64,000 nt of DNA, from assembly GCF_012163145.1 (NCBI RefSeq), contig NZ_JAAVTX010000001.1, positions 496,001 to 560,000 of the forward strand. Direction: 5' to 3'. The notes beneath the pieces are model-generated. The model saw only the letters and a list, made by a program, of their open reading frames with translations. It ran no database searches and had not been told where the DNA came from. The translations under genes and the position numbers were made by a program. Shown here one piece after another: positions 3,058-43,674 of the stretch. The number at the start of each line of letters is the position of its first letter. Position 1 is the first letter of the stretch. This DNA comes from Falsiroseomonas frigidaquae. GTDB lineage: Bacteria; Pseudomonadota; Alphaproteobacteria; Acetobacterales; Acetobacteraceae.

Positions 3058-3882
3058 ATGGATATGAGCGTGAAATGGCCGAATGGCGCGCGCTGCGCCG
3101 TGGCGCTGACCTTCGACTTCGATGCGGAGACGCTGTGGCTGTCCCGCGACCCCTCCAATGCCCGCCGCCCCGGCACGCTGAGCATGGGGCAGTACGGGGC
3201 CAAGGTGGGCGTGCCGAAGATCCTGGAGACGCTGGGCGATGCCGGCGTGAAGGGCACCTTCTTCGTCCCCGGCTGGACGGTGGAGAACCATACCGACCGC
3301 GCCGAGATGATCCTGAAGGGCGGCCATGAGATCGGCCACCACTCCTACTCCCACGCCTGGCCGGACCCGGACGCGCCGGAGAAGGACATCGAGGAGATGG
3401 AGAAGGGGCTGGAGAGCCTGAAGCGCGTGCTCGGCGTGGTGCCGAAGGGCTACCGGTCCCCGGCCGGGGAAACCACGGATGAGCTGGTGCGGCAGCTCGA
3501 CAAGCACGGCTTCCTCTACGACAGCTCGATGATGGGGGATGTGAATCCGTACCGCCTGCCGCATCCGGATGGCGGCCGGCAGCTGGTGGAGCTGCCCTAT
3601 CACTGGAGCCTGGATGACGCGCCCTTCGTGTTGTTCAGCGTGAAGACGCCGCGGCCGATCATGACCAACAGCCATATCCGCGAGGTCTGGCAGGAGGAAT
3701 TCAAGGAGATCCACCGCTGGGGTGGCTTCTACAACCTGGTCATGCACCCGCAATTGTCGGGCCGCCCCAGCCGCATCGCTCTGCTGCGCGAAATGATCGC
3801 CTTCATCCGCGGCTTCGAAGGCGTATGGTTCGCCACTTGCAGCGAGATCGCCGAAGCCTGGGCTGCCCAGGAACAACGTTGA
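3058..3882 (+). CDS. Polysaccharide deacetylase family protein (PuuE/allantoinase-like hydrolase)
   Basis: A 274-residue NodB-fold hydrolase. TFDFDAE near residue 17 supplies the metal-binding and catalytic Asp pair, and HHSYSH near residues 93-98 is the His-x3-His metal site. There is no signal peptide, and the sequence resembles the cytoplasmic branch that hydrolyses cyclic amides (PuuE allantoinase, peptidoglycan-deacetylase-like proteins) more than secreted chitin deacetylases. The ATG at 3058 has GAGGAG seven bases upstream. It lies between SDR genes and a substrate-binding protein, so it probably acts on a small imported compound rather than cell-wall glycan. Confidence 0.88.
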   Translation: MDMSVKWPNGARCAVALTFDFDAETLWLSRDPSNARRPGTLSMGQYGAKVGVPKILETLGDAGVKGTFFVPGWTVENHTDRAEMILKGGHEIGHHSYSHAWPDPDAPEKDIEEMEKGLESLKRVLGVVPKGYRSPAGETTDELVRQLDKHGFLYDSSMMGDVNPYRLPHPDGGRQLVELPYHWSLDDAPFVLFSVKTPRPIMTNSHIREVWQEEFKEIHRWGGFYNLVMHPQLSGRPSRIALLREMIAFIRGFEGVWFATCSEIAEAWAAQEQR

Positions 3883-30140: not shown

Positions 30141-30186
30141 TGGTGTCCCCGGCGGGATTCGAACCCACGGCCCCCAGATTAGGAAT
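30141..30186 (-). other. attL: 46-bp duplicated 3' part of tRNA-Arg
   Basis: Identical to the 3' part of the tRNA gene at 43598-43674 from the anticodon arm through the encoded CCA. Upstream bases diverge immediately, so this is not a functional tRNA gene but the host-side copy made by integration. Confidence 0.93.
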
Positions 30187-30335: not shown

Positions 30336-30403
30336 AGTCGGCCCTCTTACGCCGCGGGCGGGCCGAGCTGCTGGCCATGGCGGCGGGGACAGAGAAAATG
30401 CCA

Positions 30404-30512
30404 TGTCACTTGTGTCACTATGTCACCACACCTTTAACCCTATGGTTTTCATGTCATTTTCCCCACCGGGAAGGTGACATGGCGCGCCGCCGGCCATGTC
30501 ACCCATGTCACC
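30404..30512 (-). repeat. Iteron cluster, left (TGTCAC / GGTGACA motifs)
   Basis: TGTCAC occurs at 30404, 30413, 30421, 30497 and 30506 with 8-9 base spacing inside groups, a TGTCAT at 30452 and an opposite-strand GGTGACAT at 30473. The run spans the promoter region and an early possible start of the integrase, so bound protein could affect both replication and integrase expression. Confidence 0.75.
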
Positions 30513-30528
30513 GGCCGCGGGTGCTGGC

Positions 30529-31908
30529 ATGACCGGCATCGCCCCGCCGGCCGCGCGCCTGCGGCTGACGAAGCGCACGGTGGACGCCGCCACCTGCCCG
30601 CCCGGCCGGAAGGATGTGCTGGTGTTCGATGCCGAGCTGAAGGGCTTCGCGCTGCGCGTCACCAGCGCCGGCAGCAAGGTGTTCATCTTCCAGTATCGGG
30701 CGGGCGGTGCCGTGCGCCGGGTGGTGCTGGGCGACTACGGCACCCTCACGCCGGACCAAGCCCGCGACAAAGCGGAGGTTCTGCGCGGCCAGGTGCGGGG
30801 CGGCGCCGATCCGAAGGCGGAGCGCGCGGCAGCTCGGGCCGCCGCCGCCGCCAGCGTGGCCGAGGCCAGCCGCCAGGCGCAGGCGGCCGAGGCCGCGGCG
30901 CAGCGCCAGGCCACCGCCGATGCCCTGACCTTCAAGACGCTGGTGGAGCGGTGGCGCGATCTGCACCTGGCCAGCCGCCGCAGCCGCTACCAGCATGAGG
31001 CGTCGCGCGCCTTGCTCGCCTCCTTCGCCGGCTGGGCGGAGCGGCCCGCGCATGGCCTGACTGCGGCCGAGGCGGTGGCCGAGCTGGACCGCATCGCGCT
31101 GGATAGCGGGCCGGCGGCGGCGCGCTCCGCCTTCGCCTATGGCCGCGCGATGTTCGGCTGGGCAATGCGGCGCCAGCTTCTGCCGGCCAGCCCCTTCGCC
31201 GGGATTCAGCCCCCGGCGGTTGTGGCGGATCGGGACCGGGTGCTGACCGATGCCGAGCTGGGCGCGGTATGGAACGCGGCCGGCGGGCGCGGCTGGCCGA
31301 TGGGCAGCTTCGTGCGGCTGGTGATCCTGACCCTACAGCGGCGCGAGGAAGTGGCCGCCATGCGCTGGGCCGAGCTGGCGCCGGACCTGGCCACATGGAC
31401 CGTCCCGGCCGAGCGCGCGAAGAACGGCAAGGCGCATGTGGTCCACCTGGCGCCGGCCGCGCGCGCCATCCTCAAGGCCGCGCCGCGCCTGGCCGATTCG
31501 CCGCTGGTCTTCACCACCACCGGGAAGACGGCCATCTCCGGCTTCTCCACCGCAAAGGCGCGGCTGGATCGGGACATTGCCGCGGCGCGCAAGGCCGCGG
31601 GGTTGGAGCCGCACGAGCTGCCGGGCTGGCGGCTGCACGATCTGCGCCGGACCGGGGTGACGCGCCTCGCCGGCCTCGGCTTCGCGCCGCATGTCTGCGA
31701 CCGGCTGCTGAACCATGTGCAGGGGAGCATCCAGGGGGTAGCCGCGGTCTATCAGCGCCACGCCTTCCTGCCGGAGCGCCAGGCCGCGCTGGAAGCATGG
31801 GCGAAGCATGTCCTGGCCGTGGCCAGCGGCAAGCGTGCGCCGCGCGCGGCGGGTGGTGGGGGCGCGAAGGTGGTGCAGCTCGATCCCACGCGCCGCCGCC
31901 GGGCTTGA
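30529..31908 (+). CDS. int: Tyrosine site-specific integrase of the tRNA element
   Basis: A 459-residue integrase of the P4/DUF4102 type. N-terminal residues (LTKRTVDAA, VFDAELKGFALRV, QYRAGGAVRRVVLGDYG) form the arm-binding domain, then an Ala-rich linker and SAM-like core-binding domain. The catalytic domain has Arg in LQRREEVAAMRW (near 269), HDLRRTG (near 368), LLNH and the nucleophile in AAVYQRH (near 406). It should integrate and excise the element at tRNA-Arg. I prefer ATG 30529, because earlier in-frame ATGs (30496, 30505) fall within the iteron motifs. It reads inward from attL. Confidence 0.93.
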   Translation: MTGIAPPAARLRLTKRTVDAATCPPGRKDVLVFDAELKGFALRVTSAGSKVFIFQYRAGGAVRRVVLGDYGTLTPDQARDKAEVLRGQVRGGADPKAERAAARAAAAASVAEASRQAQAAEAAAQRQATADALTFKTLVERWRDLHLASRRSRYQHEASRALLASFAGWAERPAHGLTAAEAVAELDRIALDSGPAAARSAFAYGRAMFGWAMRRQLLPASPFAGIQPPAVVADRDRVLTDAELGAVWNAAGGRGWPMGSFVRLVILTLQRREEVAAMRWAELAPDLATWTVPAERAKNGKAHVVHLAPAARAILKAAPRLADSPLVFTTTGKTAISGFSTAKARLDRDIAAARKAAGLEPHELPGWRLHDLRRTGVTRLAGLGFAPHVCDRLLNHVQGSIQGVAAVYQRHAFLPERQAALEAWAKHVLAVASGKRAPRAAGGGGAKVVQLDPTRRRRA

Positions 31909-31913
31909 TGCGG

Positions 31914-32010
31914 TTGGGTCCCTCCGGCGGCGGAGCAAATACGGTGGTGAAGCCCGCGCCGCCGCAGAAGTTGGGCCGTCAGGAATTGGGGTTACCGGTC
32001 ATGACGCCCT
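31914..32010. repeat. Related segment A (pair with 43034-43130)
   Basis: Starting at GGGTCCCTCCGG, about 95 bases align without major gaps to 43034-43130 in the same orientation. On the minus strand both can be read in the same phase as a peptide with GGAGxxTV and PEGP; this copy has an in-frame stop. It may be the remnant of a small duplicated gene or an RNA element. Confidence 0.55.
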
Positions 32011-32156
32011 GCGCGGCGCGGGTGCAACGCATGCGGCAGCTATCGGCGCCCGATGGCGGCATGCGGCGGCGCGCGAAGAACACCTTGCCCGCCCCTCCAC
32101 CACCCGCGGCGCGGGTTGAGGCCGCTATCCTGATCTGTGTTGGAACGGGCCGCGCG

Positions 32157-32378
32157 TCAGTCGGTGCCCTTGGCATCCTTGCGCTGCGGCCAAAGGGCCG
32201 CATACCGGACGCGGTGTTCGTGCCGTAGGCGAGAGGTCTCCCGGCACCGTTCCCGCAATTCTTCGCAGAGTATCCTAGCTTCCTGCGTCAAGCCGCGGCC
32301 CGTGAGCTGCAATTGAAGCGACGTCGCGACCAGCTCCTGCGCGCGGGCAATCTGCTGCCGCAACTTCAACCGATCCAT
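32157..32378 (-). CDS. Small hypothetical protein, probably helical
   Basis: A 73-residue Arg-, Gln- and Leu-rich protein (LRQQIARAQELVATSLQL, then RILCEELRERCRETSRLRHEHR) predicted by eye to be a long helix or coiled coil. It begins with ATG 32378 near the first unit of the 58-bp repeat array and reads toward the integrase. No ribosome-binding site is evident and I recognise no family. Confidence 0.45.
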   Translation of the reverse strand: MDRLKLRQQIARAQELVATSLQLQLTGRGLTQEARILCEELRERCRETSRLRHEHRVRYAALWPQRKDAKGTD

Positions 32379-32444
32379 CGGGTGCCGCCACGCTGCATGA
32401 GAGCGACATCGCTGACGTGAGGCTCAAGTTCCGCGACCGGCCGG

Positions 32445-33068
32445 CGCCGCTGCGACAGATGGTGCGGGTGGTGGCCCTGCGGCCGGGCCTCGGCCAGCCG
32501 GCGGGAGCTGCGCCAGGTGGTGCGGGTGGTGGCCCTGCGGCCGGGCCTCGGCCAGCCGGCGGGAGCTGCGCCAGGTGGTGCGGGTGGTGGCCCTGCGGCC
32601 GGGCCTCGGCCAGCCGGCGGGAGCTGCGCCAGGTGGTGCGGGGAACTGCGGCCGGGCCTCGGCCAGCCGGCGGGAGCTGCGCCAGGTGGTGCGGGTGGTG
32701 GCCCTGCGGCCGGGCCTCGGCCAGCCGGCGGGAGCTGCGCCAGGTGGTGCAGGTGGTGGCCTTGCATCCCAGCCTCGGCCAGCCGGCGGGAGCTGCGCCA
32801 GGTGGTGCAGGTGGTGGCCCTGCTGCCCGGCCGCGGCCTGCCGGCGGGAGCTGCGCCAGGTGGTGCAGGTGGTGGCCCTGCTGCCCGGCCGCGGCCTGCC
32901 GGCGGGAGCTGCGCCAGGTGGTGCAGGTGGTGGCCCTGCGGCCGGGCCTCGGCCAGCCGGCGGGAGCTGCGCCAGGTGGTGCAGGTGGTGGCCCTGCGGC
33001 CGGGCCTCGGCCAGCCGGCGGGAGCTGCGCCAGGTGGTGCAGGTGGTGGCCCTGCTGCCCGGCCTCAG
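32445..33068 (+). repeat. Tandem array of a 58-bp repeat, about eleven units
   Basis: Unit boundaries (GGGAGCTGCGCC) recur at 32503, 32561, 32619, 32672, 32730, 32788, 32846, 32904, 32962 and 33020: exactly 58 bases apart except one 53-base unit; a degenerate first unit begins near 32445. Units share GAGCTGCGCCAGGTGGTGC and differ in an inner segment of about 17 bases. Because 58 is not a multiple of three, the reading frame rotates each unit, so it is not a protein repeat. It begins directly after the stop of the ImmA gene. A related array lies inverted at 42560-42715. Confidence 0.95.
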
Positions 33069-33069
33069 C

Positions 33070-33591
33070 CTATGCGCGCCCGACCCGGAGATCCTTCATG
33101 CGGACCTGCGCCGCCTCTGCCGACACATCGAACGCATTGGCCATGGCGGCGAAAGACTTCACGTTTTGCCGATAGAGGCGCCGCACCGCGGCGGCCGGCA
33201 TGAGGATATCGGCCGCATAGCGGTTTGCCTGCCGCTCTATTTCGTCGGACAAGCCCGCAGACCGGTACATGGCATTGTCCACAATGCCGTCCCCGATCAG
33301 GTCGCGGTGCATGATGAAGTGGGCAATTTCATGCGCCAGAGTGAAGCGTTGCCGGCGACGCGGATGACTGGCGTTCACCGTGACGCGGTAGCCGCCTCGG
33401 GTGCGCTCGATCTTGCCGGACACGTCATCGGACAGGTTGTCCACATATCGAACCTCAAGGCCGAGATCATCGGCCATGGCGTCAAGGTCCACCGGGATAT
33501 CTTCAAGATAGCGCCCCACGATCTGAATGGGCGTCGCCGGGTCGCGCTGATCCAAGGCCGGCTTCGTGTCAAACCTACGAGCGATCGTCAT
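33070..33591 (-). CDS. ImmA/IrrE family metallo-endopeptidase
   Basis: A 173-residue zinc protease. HEIAH at residues 87-91 within LAHEIAHFIMH is the catalytic HExxH, and ERQANRYAADILMP carries the third ligand region, both typical of ImmA. In ICEBs1 and related elements ImmA cleaves the XRE repressor ImmR to derepress excision. Here it is the last gene of a four-gene minus-strand operon headed by an XRE protein, which makes the same role likely. It overlaps the preceding membrane-protein gene by 17 bp. Its stop is two bases from the 58-bp repeat array. Confidence 0.92.
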   Translation of the reverse strand: MTIARRFDTKPALDQRDPATPIQIVGRYLEDIPVDLDAMADDLGLEVRYVDNLSDDVSGKIERTRGGYRVTVNASHPRRRQRFTLAHEIAHFIMHRDLIGDGIVDNAMYRSAGLSDEIERQANRYAADILMPAAAVRRLYRQNVKSFAAMANAFDVSAEAAQVRMKDLRVGRA

Positions 33592-34060
33592 CGGAGCCTC
33601 CCTCAGTTGCAGCCTTCATGAAATCATCGCCGTCGCCGGGTTCGGCGCCGGTCTGCCGCGCCGTTTCCTCCACCATGCGGGGAAGACGGTCCCGCAGGTA
33701 TTCCTTCGTGACCCGCTCCGCCGTTACCTCGGCGCTGTTCTTCATTTGGACATATCCGAACACGCCTGCAAGCGCCAACACGATCGCGAGGCCGGCAAGG
33801 ACTACGGTAGCCGCCGTGAGGATGATCGTAACAAACTCGACGGTGGTGAAGCCGCTGCCGGCCGAGAGTGCGGTAGCCGCAGCGGGTGCCGCCGCCGTCA
33901 CCACCGGCATGCGCGGCTGTGGCAGATAATAGATTGCCATACATGCTGCAACTAGAACGGCACCGCCCGTGAGAAGCCAGAGAATTCGGATACTATAGAA
34001 CCAGAAGGCGGGTCCTAGTTCCGCCAGCTTTCGAATATATCGCTTCACGGCATCTTGCAC
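33575..34060 (-). CDS. Hypothetical two-helix membrane protein
   Basis: A 161-residue protein with two hydrophobic segments near residues 22-46 and 72-102, separated by a short Ala/Pro-rich loop, and an acidic, charged C-terminal tail. Both ends are predicted to be cytoplasmic. No family recognised. Between the XRE/small-protein genes and ImmA, it could carry a membrane signal to the protease; this is inference from gene order only. Confidence 0.75.
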   Translation of the reverse strand: MQDAVKRYIRKLAELGPAFWFYSIRILWLLTGGAVLVAACMAIYYLPQPRMPVVTAAAPAAATALSAGSGFTTVEFVTIILTAATVVLAGLAIVLALAGVFGYVQMKNSAEVTAERVTKEYLRDRLPRMVEETARQTGAEPGDGDDFMKAATEGGSDDDRS

Positions 34061-34078
34061 TCAGATAAGTTTATGGAT

Positions 34079-34270
34079 TCAATGCGAGTGGCTGCTGAGG
34101 GTCGCGGTCTTATTGATTAAATCGGCAGTGCCGTCGCCTAAAACCCGCAGTATTCGCTGAGCCTCCGCCGTTTCGCTTTGGTCGATGGCAGTCCGGAGCA
34201 TCTTTAGACCCTCAAGCAAATCCAAAAGATCAGCAATAACCGCTGCACTGGCCCGATATTTGCCGCTCAT
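34079..34270 (-). CDS. Small hypothetical protein
   Basis: A 63-residue mostly helical protein (VIADLLDLLEGLKMLRTAID...EAQRILRVLGDGTADLINK). Its ATG at 34270 overlaps the stop of the XRE gene (ATGA), which supports it being real and co-translated with the regulator. No family recognised; a partner or inhibitor of the regulator is conceivable. Confidence 0.7.
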   Translation of the reverse strand: MSGKYRASAAVIADLLDLLEGLKMLRTAIDQSETAEAQRILRVLGDGTADLINKTATLSSHSH

Positions 34271-34503
34271 TTTTCCAGTCCTTTCCGCAGCCGCACGCCT
34301 GGCCCGCCGCCATTCTCCGCGATGAAATCAACGCCGGCCGCTTCGAGGGCGGCGCGGATCGCGGCAATGGTGCTGTCTCGCGGCGCGGTGTCCGCACCTT
34401 CAATGCGGGCCAGCGTGCGTTCCGTGGTGCCCGCCGCGCTTGCAAGCTGCGGCCGACTCCACCCTACCAGCGCGCGAGCGGCCCGAAGCTGGGCAGGGTG
34501 CAT
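34267..34503 (-). CDS. XRE-family HTH repressor of the element
   Basis: A 78-residue single-domain HTH_3 protein: LRAARALVGWSRPQLASAAGTTERTLARIEG is the helix-turn-helix, followed by a short C-terminal helix (TIAAIRAALEAAGVDFI) seen in many small prophage regulators. ATG 34503 lies within a 17-bp operator-like site, and AGGA of that site is the ribosome-binding site. It heads the operon that ends with ImmA and is divergent from the gene at 34644, the classic layout of an element's lysogeny switch. Confidence 0.88.
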   Translation of the reverse strand: MHPAQLRAARALVGWSRPQLASAAGTTERTLARIEGADTAPRDSTIAAIRAALEAAGVDFIAENGGGPGVRLRKGLEK

Positions 34504-34519
34504 GTCCGGTTTCCTGACA
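34503..34519 (-). promoter_or_regulatory. Operator-like site 1 (TGTC-N9-GACA)
   Basis: Read on the minus strand, TGTCAGGAAACCGGACA. It shares TGTCnGGAAACnnGACA with the site at 34532. It overlaps the ribosome-binding site and start codon of the XRE gene, so repressor binding here would shut off its own gene. Confidence 0.6.
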
Positions 34520-34531
34520 TTCGGCTTGAAG

Positions 34532-34548
34532 TGTCTGGAAACATGACA
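34532..34548 (+). promoter_or_regulatory. Operator-like site 2 (TGTC-N9-GACA)
   Basis: TGTCTGGAAACATGACA, matching site 1 at 12 of 17 positions including both TGTC/GACA ends and the central GGAAAC. Centre-to-centre distance is 29 bp, close to three helical turns, suiting cooperative binding of two dimers between divergent genes. Confidence 0.6.
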
Positions 34549-34643
34549 TAGCGTCGGCAGCGCCCGCAAGGGCGGCCGAGTGTCGGGGGTAGGAGCCCGG
34601 CACCCGGCCTGACCGCAACCCGAGCCCCTTGGAGGCCCGAACC

Positions 34644-35090
34644 GTGGCTGTTGACCATGATACACGCGCGCCCTCGCGGCGCGCAGTGCTGGTGGCTGGC
34701 GTCATCCCCCGCCTGACGCCAGCCGTCGCATGCGCCGCCGCCGATCCAGATGCCGACCTGCTGGCCATGGCGCGGCGGTGGAACGCCGAATTCGCGGCGC
34801 TGGAAGCGGTGGCAGACCAGTGTGCGGCGGCCGAGGCCACCGGCGACGCGGCTGCCGAGGCGGAGGCCAATGCTCGCTGTGTGGCCTTGGTCCACGATAT
34901 CAGCGCGACTGAGGACCGCATTGCCGAGCTTCCTGCCTGGGGTGCTGCCGGGCTGGCGGTGAAGGCGGGACTGCTGGCGCGCGTCCATCTCGGCCAGAAC
35001 GGGTCGGAACATCGGCACGACCGGCTGGCGCGCACCCTGGCCGCCGATGCGCGCCGCCTGGTGCCTTACGCCGCGGGGGTGAAGGCATGA
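34644..35090 (+). CDS. Hypothetical protein with Tat-like N-terminus
   Basis: A 148-residue protein. GTG 34644 has GGAGG eight bases upstream, favoured over an upstream TTG. The N-terminus (APSRRAVLVAG followed by a hydrophobic stretch and ACAAA) resembles a twin-arginine signal; the rest is Ala-rich helices (NAEFAALEAVADQCAAAEATG). No family recognised. It is the first rightward gene from the operator region and overlaps the next gene as ATGA, so the two are co-expressed. Confidence 0.7.
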   Translation: MAVDHDTRAPSRRAVLVAGVIPRLTPAVACAAADPDADLLAMARRWNAEFAALEAVADQCAAAEATGDAAAEAEANARCVALVHDISATEDRIAELPAWGAAGLAVKAGLLARVHLGQNGSEHRHDRLARTLAADARRLVPYAAGVKA

Positions 35091-35896
35091 AGCCCGCACC
35101 CTCCCGCCGCGGCATCCTGGCCGCTGCCCCAGCCGCGCTGCTGCTGCCTGCCGCGCCCGCTTCGGTAGCCCTGCCGGTGCCGCCGGCCCCCGCGCCCATG
35201 GCGTTGCCGGAGGCGGATGGGCGACTGTTCGCGCTCCGCACCACCGCCTTCATCGCGATGGATGCCCATGAGGCCGCGCACGCCGCATGGACCGAAGCCG
35301 AGGAAGCCAGGGACCGCACCCGCCAGCCCGAGGCGCGCGCTGCCGAGGATGCCGCCTGGGGCGAGTATGAGGCGGCCCTACTCGACATGGCGGACATACC
35401 GGCGGCGGGCCTGGTGGGCCTCGCTGCCAAGATGAGCGCGACCCTCGCCTATGCGGACCCCGAGGGCGGGCAGAACTATGTGGAATTCGAGCTACTTGCC
35501 AGCGCCGCGGAGGATGCCGCGCGGCTGCTGGATGACCTGGCGCTGCCGGACCCGCCGGAGCGTCCTGCGGCCTCGCCGGATGCCGAGCTGCTGATCCTGT
35601 GGGATCGGTGGTGCGAGGTTGGGGAGCGCATGCAGGCGGCGGAGGCGCGCTTGCGCGAGCTGGCGGAGGGGGCGGGCGGGCTACCGTTCTTCGCGCCGCC
35701 TGTGCAGGCGCTGGTGGTGCAGCAAGCCGCACTGGCCGAGGAACGGCGCCAGGTGCTGGCCACCATTGCGGAACGGCCAGCCGTGACGCGCAGCGGGCGC
35801 GAGGCGAAGGCGGAAATCCTCGGCAGCTACGTCACCGGCCGAGATGATGCCGTGAGCTGCCTTGCCGCCTCGCTGGTGCGGGACGTGCTGGGTTGA
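35087..35896 (+). CDS. Hypothetical protein with Tat-like N-terminus
   Basis: A 269-residue protein whose start PAPSRRGILAAAPAALLLPAAPA mirrors the previous gene's signal-like sequence. The body is helical, with repeated Ala/Glu-rich segments and no recognised domain. The second and third hundred residues show loose similarity to the mature part of the gene at 34644 (both have a helical WxxxCxxxE segment), suggesting paralogy, but this is weak. Probably exported or periplasmic if the signal works. Confidence 0.72.
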   Translation: MKPAPSRRGILAAAPAALLLPAAPASVALPVPPAPAPMALPEADGRLFALRTTAFIAMDAHEAAHAAWTEAEEARDRTRQPEARAAEDAAWGEYEAALLDMADIPAAGLVGLAAKMSATLAYADPEGGQNYVEFELLASAAEDAARLLDDLALPDPPERPAASPDAELLILWDRWCEVGERMQAAEARLRELAEGAGGLPFFAPPVQALVVQQAALAEERRQVLATIAERPAVTRSGREAKAEILGSYVTGRDDAVSCLAASLVRDVLG

Positions 35897-36117
35897 GCGC
35901 CGGCGCCGCCGGGGCGCCGTGCGGGCCGGGTGGCGGGGTGCCGCGCCTGGCGGTGGTGGCGCGCGGCCTGGCGCCACCACCGCCAACGCGCTTGCAGCCG
36001 ACTCGGCGCGTCGGGATGATGGCGTTGGGCGCGGCTAGCTTTGGCCAGCGAAGACCCGGAACTCCGAACCGGGCCGCCGCGCCGCTTTTCATTCGGGGAC
36101 GCGCATCGGAGGCGCGA

Positions 36118-37794
36118 GTGTCAAGCGAACTGCTGGGACCTGCCCCGCCGGATGCGGGCTGGTCGCTCATGGAGGCGGCGGAGGCGCTGTTTCCAGCCGA
36201 CGCGGCTGAGGGCTGGTCACAGGACAACCCGAGGGGTTGGTTCTCCCGCCTGAGTGTGGATCTTCTGCGCGCGCTATTTGCTCGCCGCGACCTCTACCTC
36301 ACGGGTCGCAACCTGGCCCTGCCCATTGATGCTCCGCGCGTGCCAGTCGGGCGCGACCTCTACGCCGCCGGCAACCTGTTCGTGCTGAGCATCATGGATG
36401 AAACGCTGCGGATTGACCGGCCCGGCGGCGGCCGGACGAGCCTTCAGGCGGTTCGGGTTCAGGCGGTGCGCGCTGTTCGACCTCCGCCGGACTTCCCGAC
36501 TGAAGCGGCGCACGCCTTGCCCTTGGATCGGGCGCTTGTGGAACTCACGGACCCGCTGTTGGCCAAAAAGTGGCAGGACGTAAAGAAGCGGCTCGCCCGC
36601 GAAGGGCGCTGGGAATATGACCCTGATTATCCGAGGGATCGGACCCGCGACCGGCTGTCGGAATTCGACGGTCACGGTCACAGGCTGCGGGAAGAGACTT
36701 CCCTCCTCTGGAGCCAGATCAAGGACGAATTCACCGGTAGGATGGCACAAGGCTTCCTCACCACCTGGGGGCGTGACGGGTCGCCGTTCGCAGTGCCGCT
36801 TGAGATTCCGGCTTCGGCCTGGCGTGTTCTAGCCATCGCTGACGCCAAGGCGGGCACCGTCCGCGGGGCGCACGGAACGCTGTTCGACGTTCACATTGGC
36901 CCTCGGTTCGTCATGCCGCGGGTGGTGGAGCCGATGGCCGCCGCGGTGCAGAAAGAGCGTGCCGGTGCGCCCGATCTGCCGAGATCTGAGATCAACACGG
37001 CGGCAGCACCGAAGGTGCCGAACGGCGCGCCTTCGCCTGCGCCAGTATCGCCTATCCAGCCTGACGCAATCCCACCGGCTGCCGGCTGGACCTTGAGAGA
37101 GGCCGTCGCGCTTCTGTGCCCTCGGGAGTTAGCCGTTGTGGAGCGAGGCGGTGAGGAACTGAGGGTCTGGCTTCACGACCGCATGGACGGGTGGGACGGC
37201 CTTTTGCCGACGGTGCATGGCGCTGAGGAGGCGACTTGGTATGCCTGGTCTCATCTGTTCGAGGTCTTTCTTTCGGCGGTTCGGCAGAGGCCCGCGCTCA
37301 CCTTCACCGGCTATGACAGGGCGGCCCCCATAGAAGCCCCACCTACCAAGGTTCCGCGCGAGCGCCTGGATGACCCGACGCTCAGCGTCCGGTTGACCGG
37401 TTCGGAGGATGATATCGGGCAGTCCATCGTCTTCGGACGGGTCACCATCGAATTCGGCCAATCCAAAACTACGTTGACTGGCGTCCGCATCGTAGACGCC
37501 GGATCGGTGCGGCATGACGGGCTGGAGCCGCCTCCTCAGCCGGCACCGAAGCCGCGAGGCGCGGTGCCTGGCGAGCATCCTGCAAACGATAGGCGAAGAA
37601 GGCTGTCGATGGTTCGTGCCGCGATGACGCTGGTGGAGGCAGGCAATCATAGCGTGCGAGCTGCGCTGCTGGCGGTGGTGAAGGTACCGCCCACCCGGAA
37701 GCCTGATGATGTGATCCGGCCGTACCGCGAGGATATGAGGCGCAATCACAAAGCTTGGTACGACAGGTACGGCCAGGGGAAAGGCGATATGTGA
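36118..37794 (+). CDS. Hypothetical protein with internal duplication
   Basis: A 558-residue protein from GTG 36118 (GGAGG five bases upstream). An N-terminal module starting APPDAGWSLMEAAEALFP and a module starting near residue 320 with PPAAGWTLREAVALLCP both run through LPIDAPR / PIEAPPTKVPRERL and end in a strand-rich stretch with TSLQAVRV / TTLTGVRIVDAG, so the protein looks like two copies of a roughly 110-160 residue unit separated by a charged and a proline-rich region. No signal peptide. The C-terminal 60 residues are basic. I recognise no family; it is the largest unexplained gene of the element. Confidence 0.8.
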   Translation: MSSELLGPAPPDAGWSLMEAAEALFPADAAEGWSQDNPRGWFSRLSVDLLRALFARRDLYLTGRNLALPIDAPRVPVGRDLYAAGNLFVLSIMDETLRIDRPGGGRTSLQAVRVQAVRAVRPPPDFPTEAAHALPLDRALVELTDPLLAKKWQDVKKRLAREGRWEYDPDYPRDRTRDRLSEFDGHGHRLREETSLLWSQIKDEFTGRMAQGFLTTWGRDGSPFAVPLEIPASAWRVLAIADAKAGTVRGAHGTLFDVHIGPRFVMPRVVEPMAAAVQKERAGAPDLPRSEINTAAAPKVPNGAPSPAPVSPIQPDAIPPAAGWTLREAVALLCPRELAVVERGGEELRVWLHDRMDGWDGLLPTVHGAEEATWYAWSHLFEVFLSAVRQRPALTFTGYDRAAPIEAPPTKVPRERLDDPTLSVRLTGSEDDIGQSIVFGRVTIEFGQSKTTLTGVRIVDAGSVRHDGLEPPPQPAPKPRGAVPGEHPANDRRRRLSMVRAAMTLVEAGNHSVRAALLAVVKVPPTRKPDDVIRPYREDMRRNHKAWYDRYGQGKGDM

Positions 37795-37826
37795 TCGGAT
37801 CGGATTTCCGCGTGGTCCGATCACAT
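37789..37826. terminator. Hairpin with 11-bp perfect arms
   Basis: ATGTGATCGGA at 37789-37799 and TCCGATCACAT at 37816-37826 are perfect inverted copies around a 16-base loop. The left arm spans the stop of the preceding gene. It could end that transcript or act as an operator for the excisionase-replication operon that follows; no T-run is present. Confidence 0.55.
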
Positions 37827-37910
37827 CACAGATTGGCGGCGCCGGTTAGGCGATCCCTGGCGTCACCGGCCGCGATTGGGCGCCCGGCGATCCGTAGGGA
37901 ATGCCTGACA

Positions 37911-38210
37911 ATGCGACGCCTTCACCTTCTCACCACCGCCGCCTTCGCGCCGCCTGATGGCCGCGGCAGCCCGCGCAGCGGCCCCGACCCCGACAGCCTG
38001 CTGAGCGAGGCCCAGACGTGCGAGCTGACCGGCCTCGCGCCGCGCACCCTACAGCGCAAGCGGCTTGATGGCACCGGCCCCCGCTTCGCGAAACTCGGCC
38101 GGATCGTGCGGTATCGTCGCGCCGATGTGGCCGCCTGGATTGCGGCGAACACCCACGCCTCCACCAGCGCCGTCACCGTGGCTGCACAGGCTGCCGGGAG
38201 TGCCGCGTGA
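37911..38210 (+). CDS. AlpA/excisionase-type MerR-like HTH protein
   Basis: A 99-residue protein. LLSEAQTCELTGLAPRTLQRKRLDGTGPRFAKLGRIVRYRRADVAAWI is the winged HTH_17 domain of phage excisionases and AlpA-like regulators. It should bind att DNA to direct excision or activate transcription of the integrase. It leads a tightly packed operon with overlaps at every junction down to the helicase gene. ATG 37911 chosen from the domain boundary. Confidence 0.88.
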   Translation: MRRLHLLTTAAFAPPDGRGSPRSGPDPDSLLSEAQTCELTGLAPRTLQRKRLDGTGPRFAKLGRIVRYRRADVAAWIAANTHASTSAVTVAAQAAGSAA

Positions 38211-38707
38211 TGGATGCCCCGATCTTCCGCGAGGATACAGGCAACGGTGTTCCCTCGCTCCCTGTCCGCAGCTTGGCGGCCGTGCTGGCGACCTTGGCGG
38301 GGCTGGTGCGGCGCGACCTTGCCACCGGCCCCAATGGCCACTGTGACGAAATTCTGATCCAGAATCCGCCTGCCGCGATACCCGGCGCACTGGCATCGCT
38401 GGCGCTGCTGTCGGACGCGCTCAACACGCAGCTCGACATTGCGGATGATTGCCTGATCAGCGGCAAACGGCCGGCGGCGACGCGGTACCATGATCCGCTG
38501 CCGGAAAGCCGGGTGATCGTGCAGCACATCGCGCGCGCCTTCCGGCACCTGTTGGACGAGGCGTGCCAATGGTGCGAGGCGGCCTATGGGGACGCCGATG
38601 CACTGGACACGGCAGCGCGGATGGTCGCGCTTGGCACTGCCCTGGCCACGCATTGCGATGGCGTCACCACCGTCCGTGCGGTGGAGCAAGGGGCGACTGC
38701 CGCATGA
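38207..38707 (+). CDS. Hypothetical protein in the replication operon
   Basis: A 166-residue helical protein (LAAVLATLAGLVRRDLATGP, ALASLALLSDALNTQLDIADD, VQHIARAFRHLLDEACQWCEAA). It starts with GTG 38207 or ATG 38210, overlapping the excisionase stop, and itself overlaps the next gene. No family recognised. Position suggests a replication or copy-control accessory. Confidence 0.75.
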   Translation: MMDAPIFREDTGNGVPSLPVRSLAAVLATLAGLVRRDLATGPNGHCDEILIQNPPAAIPGALASLALLSDALNTQLDIADDCLISGKRPAATRYHDPLPESRVIVQHIARAFRHLLDEACQWCEAAYGDADALDTAARMVALGTALATHCDGVTTVRAVEQGATAA

Positions 38708-38946
38708 CCAGATCACCGGGGCCGGACCACCGCCTAAGCGACGCCGAGGCGGTCGCGGTCTATGCGGGTGCGCCGCGCCCGGTCATCGTCGAAACCGTCG
38801 CGGCGGCCCTGGCGCTGGCCCGGGAGGAGGGCGGCGCCGAGGCCGAGGGGCCGGCGGCGCGGCACGCGCTGATCCTCGCCGCCGCCGGGCTGTATTTGCT
38901 GCTGTGGGCGCCGCGGCCGGTGCCGCCAGGGGACCAGGCCACATGA
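38704..38946 (+). CDS. Small hypothetical protein in the replication operon
   Basis: An 80-residue protein, ATGA-coupled to genes on both sides. An Ala-rich helical middle (VETVAAALALAREEGG) precedes a hydrophobic stretch (ALILAAAGLYLLLWAP) that could be a membrane helix near the C-terminus. No family recognised. Confidence 0.65.
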   Translation: MTRSPGPDHRLSDAEAVAVYAGAPRPVIVETVAAALALAREEGGAEAEGPAARHALILAAAGLYLLLWAPRPVPPGDQAT

Positions 38947-39995
38947 CGCGGGGCCTGGATGCCCGCACGCTGGCCGGGCTTCTGGCGCAGCGCGTGCCGG
39001 AGCTGGTGGCGGAGCTGCTGCCGCATGGGCGGCGGGACGGCCCGGAATGGCGCTGCGGCAGCATCAGCGGCGAACAGGGAGAATCCCTGGGCGTGCGGCT
39101 GTCCGGCGGCCGGGCCGGGGTGTGGAGTGACTTCGCCAGCGGCGAGGCCGGTGATGCGCTGGATTTGGTCGCGGCGGTCAACTTCGGTGGGGATCGGCGC
39201 GCGGCGATGGGCTGGGCGCGCCGCTGGCTCGGCCTGGGTGATGACGCCACCACCGCGGAGCCGGTGCGGCGCGCGCATGCGCCTGCGGCCTCGGCCGATG
39301 GCATGGATGCGGAGGCCGTGGCGAAGCGCCGCAAGGCGCTGGCGCTGTTCGCCGCGGCGCGGGAGCCGATCACCGGCACGCCGGCCGCGCACTACCTTGC
39401 GGCGCGCGGCATCCACCTGGCCGAGCTGGGGCGCGTGCCGCGTGCCCTGCGGTTCCATGCCGCGTGCTGGTGCGGCGAGGCGGGCGGCCCGCTGCCGGCG
39501 ATGCTCGCCGCCATCACCGGCCCGGATGGCGCGCACCTGGCCACCCACCGGACATGGATCGCACAGGATGCAGATGGTGTCTGGCGGAAGGCGAAGTTGA
39601 AGGATGCGAAGCGCACGCTCGGCAGCTATGCGGGCGGGACCATCCGCCTGTGGCGCGGCGCCACTGCCACGCCGCTGGCGCAGGCGGCGCCGGGTGCATC
39701 GGTGGCGCTGGCCGAGGGGATCGAAACCGCGCTGTCCGTGGCGCTGGCCTGCCCGGAGCTGCGCGTCCTATGCGCCGTGAGCCTCGGCAACCTGGCGCGC
39801 GTGGCGCTGCCTGCCAACGTCGCCATCGTGATCCTCGCGGCTGACAATGACGGGGACAATCCCAGCGCGGCGAAGGCGCTGGCGCGCGCCGTCGAACGCT
39901 TCACGGCGGAGGGGCGCGAGGTTCGCATTGCCCGGCCACCGGAGGGCATGAAGGACTTCAATGACGTGTTGACCGCACCGGAGCCGGGCGCATGA
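38943..39995 (+). CDS. Toprim-domain primase-like protein
   Basis: A 350-residue protein. Its N-terminal third resembles a primase-type zinc-binding region without the usual Cys set (WRCGSISGEQGESLGVRLSGGRAGVWSDFASGEAGDALDLV is the conserved DUF7146-like lead), and the C-terminal part is a Toprim domain: LAEGIETALS supplies the Glu near residue 256 and ILAADNDGD the Asp pair near 299, which bind Mg2+. It should make primers for element replication. It directly precedes and overlaps the DUF927 helicase gene, the usual pairing in alphaproteobacterial elements. Confidence 0.9.
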   Translation: MTRGLDARTLAGLLAQRVPELVAELLPHGRRDGPEWRCGSISGEQGESLGVRLSGGRAGVWSDFASGEAGDALDLVAAVNFGGDRRAAMGWARRWLGLGDDATTAEPVRRAHAPAASADGMDAEAVAKRRKALALFAAAREPITGTPAAHYLAARGIHLAELGRVPRALRFHAACWCGEAGGPLPAMLAAITGPDGAHLATHRTWIAQDADGVWRKAKLKDAKRTLGSYAGGTIRLWRGATATPLAQAAPGASVALAEGIETALSVALACPELRVLCAVSLGNLARVALPANVAIVILAADNDGDNPSAAKALARAVERFTAEGREVRIARPPEGMKDFNDVLTAPEPGA

Positions 39996-41896
39996 GCGAC
40001 GATCCGCGCAAGAACACGGCGCGTCGTGCGATCTTGGGTGCGACGCCGCCACCACCGCCAGGTGGTCCCTGGGAAGGGACGGAGGTTGTCGGCTTCGACA
40101 TGAAGACCGATGGCCTGTGGCGCCTGCCGCCGGACAAGACGAAGGCCGCCATGTGGGTGTGTGGGCGCTTCGATATCCTGGCCCGCACGCGGGATGCCGA
40201 TGGCGAGGCGCATGGGCTGCTGCTGCGCTGGTGGGATGATGACCGCGTGCAGCACGAATGGATCATGCCGGCGGCGCTGCTGGTCGGTGAAGCGGCGGAG
40301 CTGCGCGCGCGCCTGGCCTCGGGTGGCTTGAAGCTGTCGCCATCGCAGGGCGCGCGCCAGGCGCTGCTGGAATTCCTCACCCACCAGCGCCCGAAAGATC
40401 GTGTTCGCACCGTGCCGCGCGTCGGCTGGTTTCACGGCCGCGACGGTGGCGCCGCCTTCGTGCTGCCGGGCCAGGTGTTCGGCGCCGTCAACGGGGAGCG
40501 GGTGTTGCTCGACCTGCCGGAGCGGCCTCCCGCGGTCTATCGCCAGGCTGGCACCTTGAAGGACTGGCGGGCGCTGGTGGCGGCGCGCTGCGCTGGCAAT
40601 TCGCGCGTGGTGCTGGCTGCCTCGCTGGCCTTCGCGGGGGCGCTGCTGACGCCGCTGAATGAGGAAGGCGGTGGGTTGCAGCTTCGCGGCGGATCGCGCC
40701 TCGGCAAATCCACCGCGCTCAAGGTCGCGGCCAGCGTGTGGGGGCCGCCGGAGGGGGCGGAGTCCTTCAAGCGGAGCTGGCGCGCGACGGGGAACGGAAT
40801 CGAGGGGCTGGCGGCGCAGCACAATGACGGGCTGCTGCCGCTGGATGAGCTGGGCGAGATGGACCCGCGCGAGGCCGGTGCCACCGCCTACATGCTGGGC
40901 AACGGCACGGGCAAGGCGCGCGCGCATCGCACCGGCACCACCCGGCCGGTCGCAAGCTGGCGGCTGCTGTTCCTGTCCACCGGAGAGGAATCACTGGCGG
41001 ATATCCTGGCGCGGGCCGGGCACACCATCCGGGCCGGGCAGGAAGTGCGATTCATCGACCTGCCGGCGGATGCCGGGCGGGGCCTGGGGATCTTCGAGAC
41101 CATCCATGAGGCGGCCGAGCATGGCGCGGCGAGTGCGGGGGAATTCGCGGAGCGGCTGACCGGCGCGGCGATGGCGCAGCACGGCACGGCGGGACCGGCC
41201 TTCCTGACCTGGTTGACGAGCCGGCTTGCGAAGGACCCGGCATGGCCTGGCCGCGACCTGGCGGCGCGGGTGCGGGACTTCCTTGAGGATGCGATGCCGG
41301 ACGGCGCCAGCGGGCAGGTTCGCACCGTCTGCCGTCGCTTCGCGCTGGTGGCGCTGGCTGGCGAACTGGCGACGGAAGCCGACATCACCGGATGGCCCTC
41401 CGGCACCGCGACCGAGGCGGCGCGATCCTGTTTCGAGGCATGGTGCGCCTCGCGCGGATCGGTGGAGGCGCGGGAAGATTTGGCCGCGGTGGAACAGGTG
41501 CGGGCCTGCCTGGCGCAGCACGGGCAAGCGCGCTTCGAAATGTGGAAGGACCGGGCGCAGCCGGACATGCCGGAGGCCGAGGCGGCGGCGGCGGATGCGC
41601 CACCGGAGGCGCGGGCGGTGCCGAATCGCATGGGCTTCCGCCGATGGGAACGCGACGCGGCGGCGGAGGGGGGCGGGCGCTGGGTGTTCTTCTTCCTGCC
41701 GGCGGGCTGGCGCGAGGCGACCAAGGGTCTGGACCCGGTGGAGGCGGCGAAGGTGCTGGCGGCGCGCGGCTTCCTGCGGGCAGGCAAGGGCCATCCGAGC
41801 CGCACGGTGAAGATTCCCGGCTACCCGGCGGGGGCCAAGGTCTATCAGGTGTGCGGGAGCATCCTCGGCGGGGATGCCGGCGAGGCGCCGGAGTAG
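39992..41896 (+). CDS. DUF927 helicase-like replication protein
   Basis: A 634-residue protein. Residues about 30-300 match DUF927: LLLRWWDDDRVQHEWIMPAALL, PRVGWFHGR, then Walker A GGSRLGKST near residue 232 and Walker B PLDELGEMD near residue 283, with YMLGNGTGKARA, LLFLSTGE and RFIDLPADAG following. This ATPase is thought to act as the replicative helicase or initiator of integrative elements, with the Toprim protein as primase; together they replace the single alpha protein of phage P4. Residues 470-634 are a less conserved basic region that could bind origin DNA. Confidence 0.9.
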   Translation: MSDDPRKNTARRAILGATPPPPPGGPWEGTEVVGFDMKTDGLWRLPPDKTKAAMWVCGRFDILARTRDADGEAHGLLLRWWDDDRVQHEWIMPAALLVGEAAELRARLASGGLKLSPSQGARQALLEFLTHQRPKDRVRTVPRVGWFHGRDGGAAFVLPGQVFGAVNGERVLLDLPERPPAVYRQAGTLKDWRALVAARCAGNSRVVLAASLAFAGALLTPLNEEGGGLQLRGGSRLGKSTALKVAASVWGPPEGAESFKRSWRATGNGIEGLAAQHNDGLLPLDELGEMDPREAGATAYMLGNGTGKARAHRTGTTRPVASWRLLFLSTGEESLADILARAGHTIRAGQEVRFIDLPADAGRGLGIFETIHEAAEHGAASAGEFAERLTGAAMAQHGTAGPAFLTWLTSRLAKDPAWPGRDLAARVRDFLEDAMPDGASGQVRTVCRRFALVALAGELATEADITGWPSGTATEAARSCFEAWCASRGSVEAREDLAAVEQVRACLAQHGQARFEMWKDRAQPDMPEAEAAAADAPPEARAVPNRMGFRRWERDAAAEGGGRWVFFFLPAGWREATKGLDPVEAAKVLAARGFLRAGKGHPSRTVKIPGYPAGAKVYQVCGSILGGDAGEAPE

Positions 41897-42720
41897 GCTG
41901 CGGGCGCGCCCTCCCCCGGCTTCGGCCGGTGCGGGGGATGCGGCGCCGCATGGTCCATGCTTTGACCGGTGACCGGCGCGGCGCGGGTCTTCCGCACATA
42001 GGGCTTGCCTATCGGGGGCGGGCTGGCCTAGCGTTTTTGGGCGCGCGACGGGCTGAAAAGCTCACGGAAAAACAGGAAAGCGGTCCTAGATTGTCTCACG
42101 GATCGGGATTGGGTCTCAAAACCGAAAATCGGCACATTCGGACGTGATATCAAGGGCTTAGACGTTTTCTTTCCATAATGCCTATTATGCGGCAATGGCT
42201 CGGTCTCTTTCGCGAGTCTTGTCCAAATAGGCGAGACGCCGCGAAACGAGGGTAAGGGGCCGCCGCGCGGGGCCGAGGCCCAGCCGCTGAACCGTCACCC
42301 GCACCGCCTGGCGCAGGGCCGAGGCACGGCCGTAGGCGACCACCATCCGCACAGGCCGAGGCGCGCTATCGGCCAACGCTATCCGCTTCGCCGCAGCCGG
42401 GCCAGAGGCTATAGGCGCAGCGCAGCGTGCCGCGACACGGTGATATTCTCCCTGCCGTAGGACCGCCCTCGGGCGGGCTCGCCATGCGGGGTTCGCGGGA
42501 GGCCCCGCCGGCACGCTGCACCAGAAGGCCCGGTGACCCTGCCGGCGTGCGAGCATCATCAGCACCACCTGGCGCAGCACCGCCGGCAGGCCGAGGGCCG
42601 GGCCGCAGGGCCACCACCAGCACCACCTGGCGCAGCACCGCCGGCAGGCCGAGGGCCGGGCCGCAGGGCCACCACCAGCACCACCTGGCGCAGCGCCGAC
42701 GGCAGGGTGAGGTCGGCAAA
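41897..42720. other. Non-coding right arm of the element, part 1
   Basis: No supported gene. It holds a stable CCGGC-TTCG-GCCGG hairpin flanked by C5/G5 runs at about 41911-41937 (likely terminator of the replication operon), an AT-richer patch at 42050-42190, degenerate copies of the 58-bp repeat near 42296-42350, and the right repeat array. Confidence 0.55.
42560..42715 (-). repeat. 58-bp repeat array, right (inverted relative to the left array)
   Basis: CAGCACCACCTGGCGCAGC recurs at 42560, 42618 and 42676, exactly 58 bases apart; the third unit decays after about 40 bases. Its reverse complement matches the unit at 32445-33068 in length and most positions. A more diverged copy with a roughly 10-base deletion begins near 42299. 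Confidence 0.9.
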
Positions 42721-42721
42721 A

Positions 42722-42819
42722 GGTGACATGGTGACAGCGGCCCAAAGCCCAGGTGACATGGACTTTGGCGAATTTATCCGTTCTGTATCAATGAGATATG
42801 ACGAAGGTGACACAGTGAC
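42722..42819 (+). repeat. Iteron cluster, right (GGTGACA)
   Basis: (G/A)GTGACA(T/G/C) begins at 42722, 42730, 42752, 42796, 42804 and 42812; within each group units are exactly 8 bases apart. Between the groups is an AT-rich stretch (42770-42792). Direct iterons beside an AT-rich segment look like a replication origin. The same motif occurs in inverse orientation at 30404-30512. Confidence 0.8.
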
Positions 42820-43033
42820 ACGGTGACACGGCTTTTTGCAGGGGAGCCGGGCGCGCGGTGCTTTGGAGACGGCACGCGGCGGCCCCATTCCGCGCAGGGC
42901 GCCCTACGGCCGGGCTTGGCGTGCTGCATGCCGGGGGAGGAAGGGTGCGGACAGGTGCGGTGCCGGAAGCGGGCGGGTGGTGCCGGCGAGGGTGTGGCAG
43001 GTGATGCGGCGCGGCATGTTCAGATGCTCGGTG

Positions 43034-43130
43034 CCGGCGCGGGTGGGTCCCTCCGGAGAGCCCGCTAATACGGTGAGGACGCCCGCGCCTCCCCGGTTGT
43101 TGGCCGTGACGCGATTGGCGCAACCGGTGA
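43034..43130. repeat. Related segment B (pair with 31914-32010)
   Basis: Begins GGGTCCCTCCGG and aligns with segment A over about 95 bases in the same orientation. Here the minus-strand phase is open and reads TGCANRVTANNRGGAGVLTV followed by LAGSPEGP. Substitutions relative to segment A partly preserve the peptide, hinting at former coding. Confidence 0.55.
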
Positions 43131-43597: not shown

Positions 43598-43643
43598 TGG
43601 TGTCCCCGGCGGGATTCGAACCCACGGCCCCCAGATTAGGAAT
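43598..43643 (-). other. attR: 46-bp core within tRNA-Arg
   Basis: Perfect copy of 30141-30186, covering the anticodon loop through the 3' CCA. Integration here keeps the tRNA functional. Confidence 0.93.
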
Positions 43644-43674
43644 CTGGTGCTCTATCCGGCTGAGCTACGGAGAC
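43598..43674 (-). tRNA. tRNA-Arg (anticodon CCT)
   Basis: A 77-nt cloverleaf on the minus strand: acceptor GTCTCCG pairs with CGGGGAC, anticodon stem CCAGA/TCTGG encloses loop TTCCTAA (anticodon CCT, codon AGG), T-arm GTGGGTTCGAATCCCGC, and CCA is encoded. The 3' 46 bases are the attachment core of the integrated element; the intact gene is restored at the element's right end. Confidence 0.95.

Follow-up and report, generated by a model that had tools for sequence, protein, structure and literature searches.

The window analysed here is a stretch of 64,000 nucleotides of the Falsiroseomonas frigidaquae genome (G000:C9:496001-560000), and it contains a 13.5-kb element integrated in tRNA-Arg. 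The element carries two tandem arrays of the same 58-bp unit in opposite orientations, so that they face each other. The arrays are situated in the two gaps that separate converging recognised genes. The left gap parts the genes for a tyrosine integrase (int) and an ImmA/IrrE-type peptidase (immA), and the right one parts a DUF927 gene from the tRNA. Small open reading frames (ORFs), which may be genes, are present in both of these gaps. The repeat features are:

32449..33070, plus strand: left array of 11 tandem 58-bp units, of which one has 53 bp and the last is partial, between the 3′ ends of int and immA
42560..42706, minus strand: right array of 2.5 tandem 58-bp units running opposite to those of the left array, in the gap from the 3′ end of the DUF927 gene to the tRNA
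42271..42352, minus strand: a lone degenerate unit with 73% identity to the left array

Tandem Repeats Finder (TRF) recovers the left array as 10.8 copies of 58 bp (32449-33070, score 1041) and the right array as 2.5 copies of 58 bp (42560-42706, score 280), which confirms the initial annotation of inverted 58-bp arrays with eleven and about 2.5 units inside the element. The left units start at positions 32449, 32507, 32565, 32623 (the 53-bp unit), 32676, 32734, 32792, 32850, 32908, 32966 and 33024, and the right units, on the minus strand, at 42694, 42636 and 42578. The right array is 88% identical to the left over about 150 bp in inverted orientation, and the core present in both is GCTGCGCCAGGTGGTGC; the constant core described in the initial annotation is thus shared by both arrays, apart from its leading 'GA', which is not found in the right one. 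Along the left array the units follow the order A, A, A, 53-bp unit, A, mutated, B, B, A, A, B-like. The variants are distributed in a patchy fashion: in a comparison that omitted the 53-bp unit L4, units L2, L3 and L5 are identical, the B-type units L7 and L8 are identical, and the A-type returns at L9 and L10. GC content is 80% in the arrays and 70% in the element. Head-to-tail repetition of units of about 10-100 bp with high identity is the form of a minisatellite, or variable number tandem repeat (VNTR), and both arrays have it.

The unit was found in none of the other genomes searched, a set with one genome per species. Array DNA matched its own genome only, both among 16 genus members (E 1e-8, with 36 candidates scored in each genome) and among 348 genomes of the family (E 1e-10; two candidates scored per genome), and no match was found among 72,556 plasmid or 50,697 phage records (E 1e-5). 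Pairs of the exact core spaced 36-52 bp apart are found in two of the 348 family genomes, the own genome (11 places) and G048 (once, likewise adjoining a DUF927 gene). The exact 19-base core occurs once in each of four viral contigs. Within the own genome, 13 of the 14 copies of the exact 16-bp core CTGCGCCAGGTGGTGC lie inside the arrays, and the array-DNA matches outside the element (8 of 11) are weak, at most 48 bits, which rules out a dispersed chromosomal repeat; the initial annotation had named scatter over the chromosome as evidence that would count against its reading. Clustered regularly interspaced short palindromic repeats (CRISPR) are likewise ruled out, as that annotation had held, because the full 58 bp repeats and there are no unrelated spacers, unlike the CRISPR in control DNA. 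This control comprised 1.2 Mb, namely 800 kb of G000 and 400 kb of G004 and G048, and does not extend to genomes G105, G091, G269 and G211. TRF periods of 50-70 bp that occur in it are all divisible by three and lie within open frames 656-1018 codons long, apart from one 61-bp CRISPR, and the arrays therefore exceed chance. In the G004 genome, L202 (7075-10022) is a CRISPR array with 47 repeat-core copies.

The host element is delimited by a duplicated tRNA 3′ end and has the following features:

30141..30186: att repeat at the integrase end, 46-bp direct repeat, copy of the tRNA-Arg 3′ end
30496..31908, plus strand: tyrosine integrase (int), with Arm-DNA-bind_3 and Phage_integrase domains
33070..33591, minus strand: ImmA/IrrE-type peptidase (immA), Peptidase_M78, stop codon at the left-array end
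38586..39995, plus strand: Toprim_3/DUF7146 primase-like protein, ORF as listed, true start possibly further in
39992..41896, plus strand: DUF927 primase/helicase-like protein
43598..43643: att repeat at the tRNA end, 46 bp, within tRNA-Arg(CCT)
43598-43674, minus strand: tRNA-Arg(CCT)

The tyrosine integrase, the tRNA 3′-end duplication and the pair of Toprim and DUF927 genes are characteristic of pHS87b-type integrative plasmids, and the PHROGs label for the Toprim/DUF7146 and DUF927 proteins is primase or primase/helicase. The element is integrative and, like pHS87b, probably self-replicating once excised. It also contains an int-alpA RNA (RF02996, 51.9 bits) at 36028-36098 and an ORF (37755-38210) that matches an excisionase/regulator family. 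A 91-bp repeat with 74% identity is present in one orientation at both element ends (31910-31999 and 43039-43128), and a 56-bp relative with 84% identity lies at another place on the contig (L123).

Relatives of the DUF927 protein (E 1e-60) are encoded in 77 of the 348 family genomes including the own genome, at 93 listed places, one of which is the window; 80 of the 92 others were fetched with their flanks as sister loci. Sister arrays were defined by a TRF score of at least 90, a period of 50-70 bp and a position at most 4 kb downstream of DUF927 (288 kb in all), and were considered comparable if their period could not be divided by three; L152 and L153 were accepted on the ground that no open frame of more than 140 codons ran across the array. 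Comparable arrays are sporadic and occur in six of the 80 loci:

L066 (G004): 56 bp, 14.6 copies
L070 (G048): 56 bp, 2.4 copies, spanned by an open frame in the 238-296-codon range
L153 (G105): 57 bp, 5.9 copies, cut by the contig end
L154 (G091): 59 bp, 2.3 copies and more, spanned by an open frame in the 238-296-codon range
L152 (G269): 66 bp, 4.4 copies, cut by the contig end
L086 (G211): 65 bp, 1.9 copies, weak, spanned by an open frame in the 238-296-codon range

The other 74 loci show no comparable array, with some of them cut by contig ends; 69 of the 80 extend at least 2 kb downstream of DUF927, and some absences may reflect truncation. Left out of the count were L188, whose periods (57 and 45 bp) are divisible by three and lie in a frame of 940 codons, repeats whose period falls beyond the 50-70-bp range (39 bp in L156, at a contig end; 227 bp in L079; 269 bp in L089; 106 and 139 bp in L086; 74 bp in L154; and others), and a further array of L154, located at the opposite contig end and 8.5 kb ahead of the DUF927 end. 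Two other DUF927 loci of the own genome (L057, L058) lack a comparable array, 14 integrase-related loci have no array of 53-60 bp at a TRF score of 60, and no relative of the DUF927 protein was found in viral contigs. Among the literature matches listed, no title or abstract start deals with arrays in DUF927 elements, which is no proof of absence.

Two further observations concern these loci. L154 (G091:C97), a contig of 10,458 bp, carries a DUF927 gene, and its two contig ends share an overlap of 33 bp and both lie in a 59-bp array; it may be either a circular form or a contig broken in the repeats. A small serine recombinase gene lies near the arrays of L066 (15719-16288) and L070 (3045-3866), and among the first 40 sister loci 17, counting L066 and L070, have a relative, mostly downstream of DUF927; in the window the serine recombinase has no match at E 1e-10.

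The units of G004 and G105 are clearly alike, and the G004-type triple pattern is found in one of the 348 genomes (G105, at four places in its array). In profile searches, the best sister-array match of the window profile is L152 (E 0.21), behind three matches in 800 kb of control DNA, with L070 at E 3.4. The G004/G105 profile finds the 39-bp array of L156 (E 0.1) and the G091 array (E 1.3), with control matches scoring ahead of both; the G091 profile finds the G004 array (E 1.0), with a control match in the lead; and the window array is not among the three matches of the G048 profile. Because these searches against real GC-rich control DNA failed to separate sister arrays from background, we do not claim common ancestry of the arrays across elements. 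Sister units show no resemblance to the window unit above background, with G048 borderline, and a fair reading of the sequences is that arrays of different elements either originated independently or diverged past recognition.

A different type of repeat is found at the element ends, where two iteron modules of ~120 bp with a lower GC content (50-53%) are built from the short site GGTGACA:

30395..30519, plus strand: left iteron module (GGTGACA / TGTCAC), in which three sites precede one inverted site and a further two, overlapping the int start
42714..42838, minus strand: right iteron module, inverted counterpart of the left, adjoining the right array

Iterons were compared in the window and 24 other loci whose integrase position was usable. 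In 17 of these 25, the region upstream of int and the region downstream of DUF927 each contain three or more copies of a common 7-mer; 13 of the 17 (the window and 12 sister loci) are of GTG type, with paired clusters in element-specific letters (words such as GGTGTAA, GGTGTTA, GGTGTTC, GGTGTGC, GTGTAAG and GTGCCCC), and the other four (L066, L089, L093 and L172) share other GC-rich words. When the GTG-type loci were set against random pieces of their own locus, 10 of the 13 were matched by 0 of 50 pieces, and L073 (9/50), L079 (27/50) and the window (7/50) were not exceptional. Nine loci were laid out: the left module consists of three sites 8-10 bp apart, one inverted site and then two, and the right module shows this arrangement inverted, where both the inverted sites and the end sites number one or two. 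The single middle site of the window's right module is not inverted. The spacing is alike across aligned loci and the letters vary by element. The inverted repeat that the 12 sister loci have in common at both ends is the iteron module, not the 58-bp array, and its paired clusters could be integrase arm sites or origin iterons, both being possible. The idea that array orientation follows the iterons was dropped because the core is nearly palindromic and there are few cases. A second iteron type is present downstream of DUF927 as ten or so ACCGGGACA or CCGGGGCC sites (L066 14228-14476; about L153 505-746 and L070 4316-4561, in locus coordinates), and in L079 a 227-bp repeat in two copies with iterons (GGTGTGCC) lies downstream of DUF927 at 3079-3521.

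Taken together, we favour the view that the arrays are minisatellites, probably young and fast-changing, residing in weakly constrained DNA and not needed by the element. A GC-rich segment under weak selection near the element ends would have been duplicated and then expanded by replication slippage or unequal recombination; one array may have seeded the other in inverted orientation, and recombination may have exchanged sequence between units, since the order of variants in the left array fits such exchange. Several observations weigh against this interpretation. The periods of 58, 56, 56, 57 and 59 bp in five array-bearing loci, the window included, show a bias to 56-59 bp, a narrower range than free slippage suggests; the right array touches the iteron module, and the arrays flank attP. 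Shuffle-based pairwise scores favoured kinship for several unit pairs. The G048 and window arrays have a 15-bp core in common, in tandem; the chance of such a common 15-mer is ~0.013 (seven array-bearing loci, both strands), a low estimate as the arrays exceed one unit. It is conceivable, if decidedly unlikely, that the ends of DUF927-type elements repeatedly evolve arrays with a period near 57 bp in which length, not sequence, is selected, for a spacing-dependent nucleoprotein structure near the iteron modules flanking attP in the excised circle. If the arrays are indeed minisatellites, they are a warning against inferring function from symmetry, as the inverted end sites shared with sister loci are the ~120-bp iteron modules. 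The iteron module is a good entry point to the replication or excision of DUF927/Toprim elements.

The initial annotation proposed a centromere/partition or replication role from the placement of the arrays. In a specific version, they would be cis-acting replication or maintenance sites of the excised circle, like the ori/crr pair of satellite phage P4, to which either the DUF927/Toprim proteins or a factor of the host would bind. In the circular form the arrays would point away from attP, over which they are 3.2 kb apart compared with 9.5 kb the other way; this geometry, the iteron module adjoining the right array, the concentration of sister-locus arrays near DUF927 and the occurrence of DUF927 relatives on small plasmids all speak for such sites. 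However, a replication or partition site is expected in sister elements, and the 74 sister loci and two further own-genome loci without a comparable array, together with a unit that is not conserved above background, fit this poorly, even with some loci cut by contig ends. Six DUF927 plasmid records (three partial) contain no array near 57 bp outside a gene, and the iterons already supply a shared candidate. A replication or partition role of the arrays is thus unsupported, and we regard the cis-site explanation as unlikely. The inverted arrays could instead be recombination substrates that flip the 9.5-kb interior or change copy number by unequal exchange, thereby acting as an adaptive switch; their identity, inverted orientation and 9.5-kb separation would allow it, but no other array-bearing sister locus shows an inverted pair of one unit, G091 has two same-orientation arrays at its contig ends, int and DUF927 are on opposite strands in none of the 25 loci and no flipped form was seen, which makes this quite improbable.

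An action as RNA, be it as a structured repeat transcript, a terminator or a transcription barrier between converging genes, would agree with the position of both arrays and their 80% GC, and the initial annotation had suggested a regulatory RNA. Three two-unit pieces, folded on both strands, nevertheless fold no better than shuffles (z = +1.06, 0.08, -0.35, -0.61, 0.62 and 1.84), Rfam has no match within the arrays and no sigma-70-type promoter-like site was detected in 31900-33700, so that such a function is very improbable. The G-quadruplexes suggested at the same time find no support either, as neither array has, on either strand, a motif of four G runs, each of three or more G, joined by short loops, and two-G motifs are common in the background (112 and 84 by strand in 30 kb of the window). 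It is scarcely credible that the arrays are coding sequence for a repeat protein in which three units form a super-period of 58 amino acids. Eleven of the twelve frames across the arrays are stop-free and a 252-amino-acid ORF spans the left array, but the frames of both strands are equally open, as expected for GC-rich repeats, 58 bp is not a multiple of three, the 53-bp unit shifts the frame, and for three peptides from the array edges the loci compared contain no relative that rises above background. The initial annotation is hence partly supported: the arrays, the element, the non-CRISPR and non-scattered nature of the repeats and their implausibility as protein repeats stand, and the quadruplex, regulatory-RNA and centromere/replication proposals are not supported.

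Bacterial minisatellites and VNTRs are a class known for tandem units of tens of base pairs. The arrays resemble them in their head-to-tail units of this size, in the mixing of variants and in their location outside recognised genes, and differ in that two inverted arrays of one unit reside in one mobile element. Satellite phage P4, an element with a primase/helicase, has two cis-acting repeat regions, ori and crr; the P4-like part of the present element would more likely be the short iterons than the 58-bp arrays.

The element itself resembles pHS87b of Pseudomonas aeruginosa, which has a P4-type tyrosine integrase, adjacent Toprim and DUF927 genes, an att of 45 bp at a tRNA 3′ end (46 bp here), a size of 11.2 kb (13.5 kb here) and a circular form measured as about twice as abundant as the integrated form (PMC4739549). 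pHS87b differs in having ogr-like and P2-type capsid genes, and no tandem array with a period of at least 8 bp at a TRF score of 70. The tandem repeats of Borgs are perfect and A-enriched and belong to huge archaeal elements, whereas those described here are imperfect, have 80% GC and belong to a 13.5-kb integrated element; in both cases, the repeats are sporadic in a mobile element, seemingly of independent origin, not seen in host control DNA, and, where intergenic, mostly of a unit length not divisible by three (PMC9879509).

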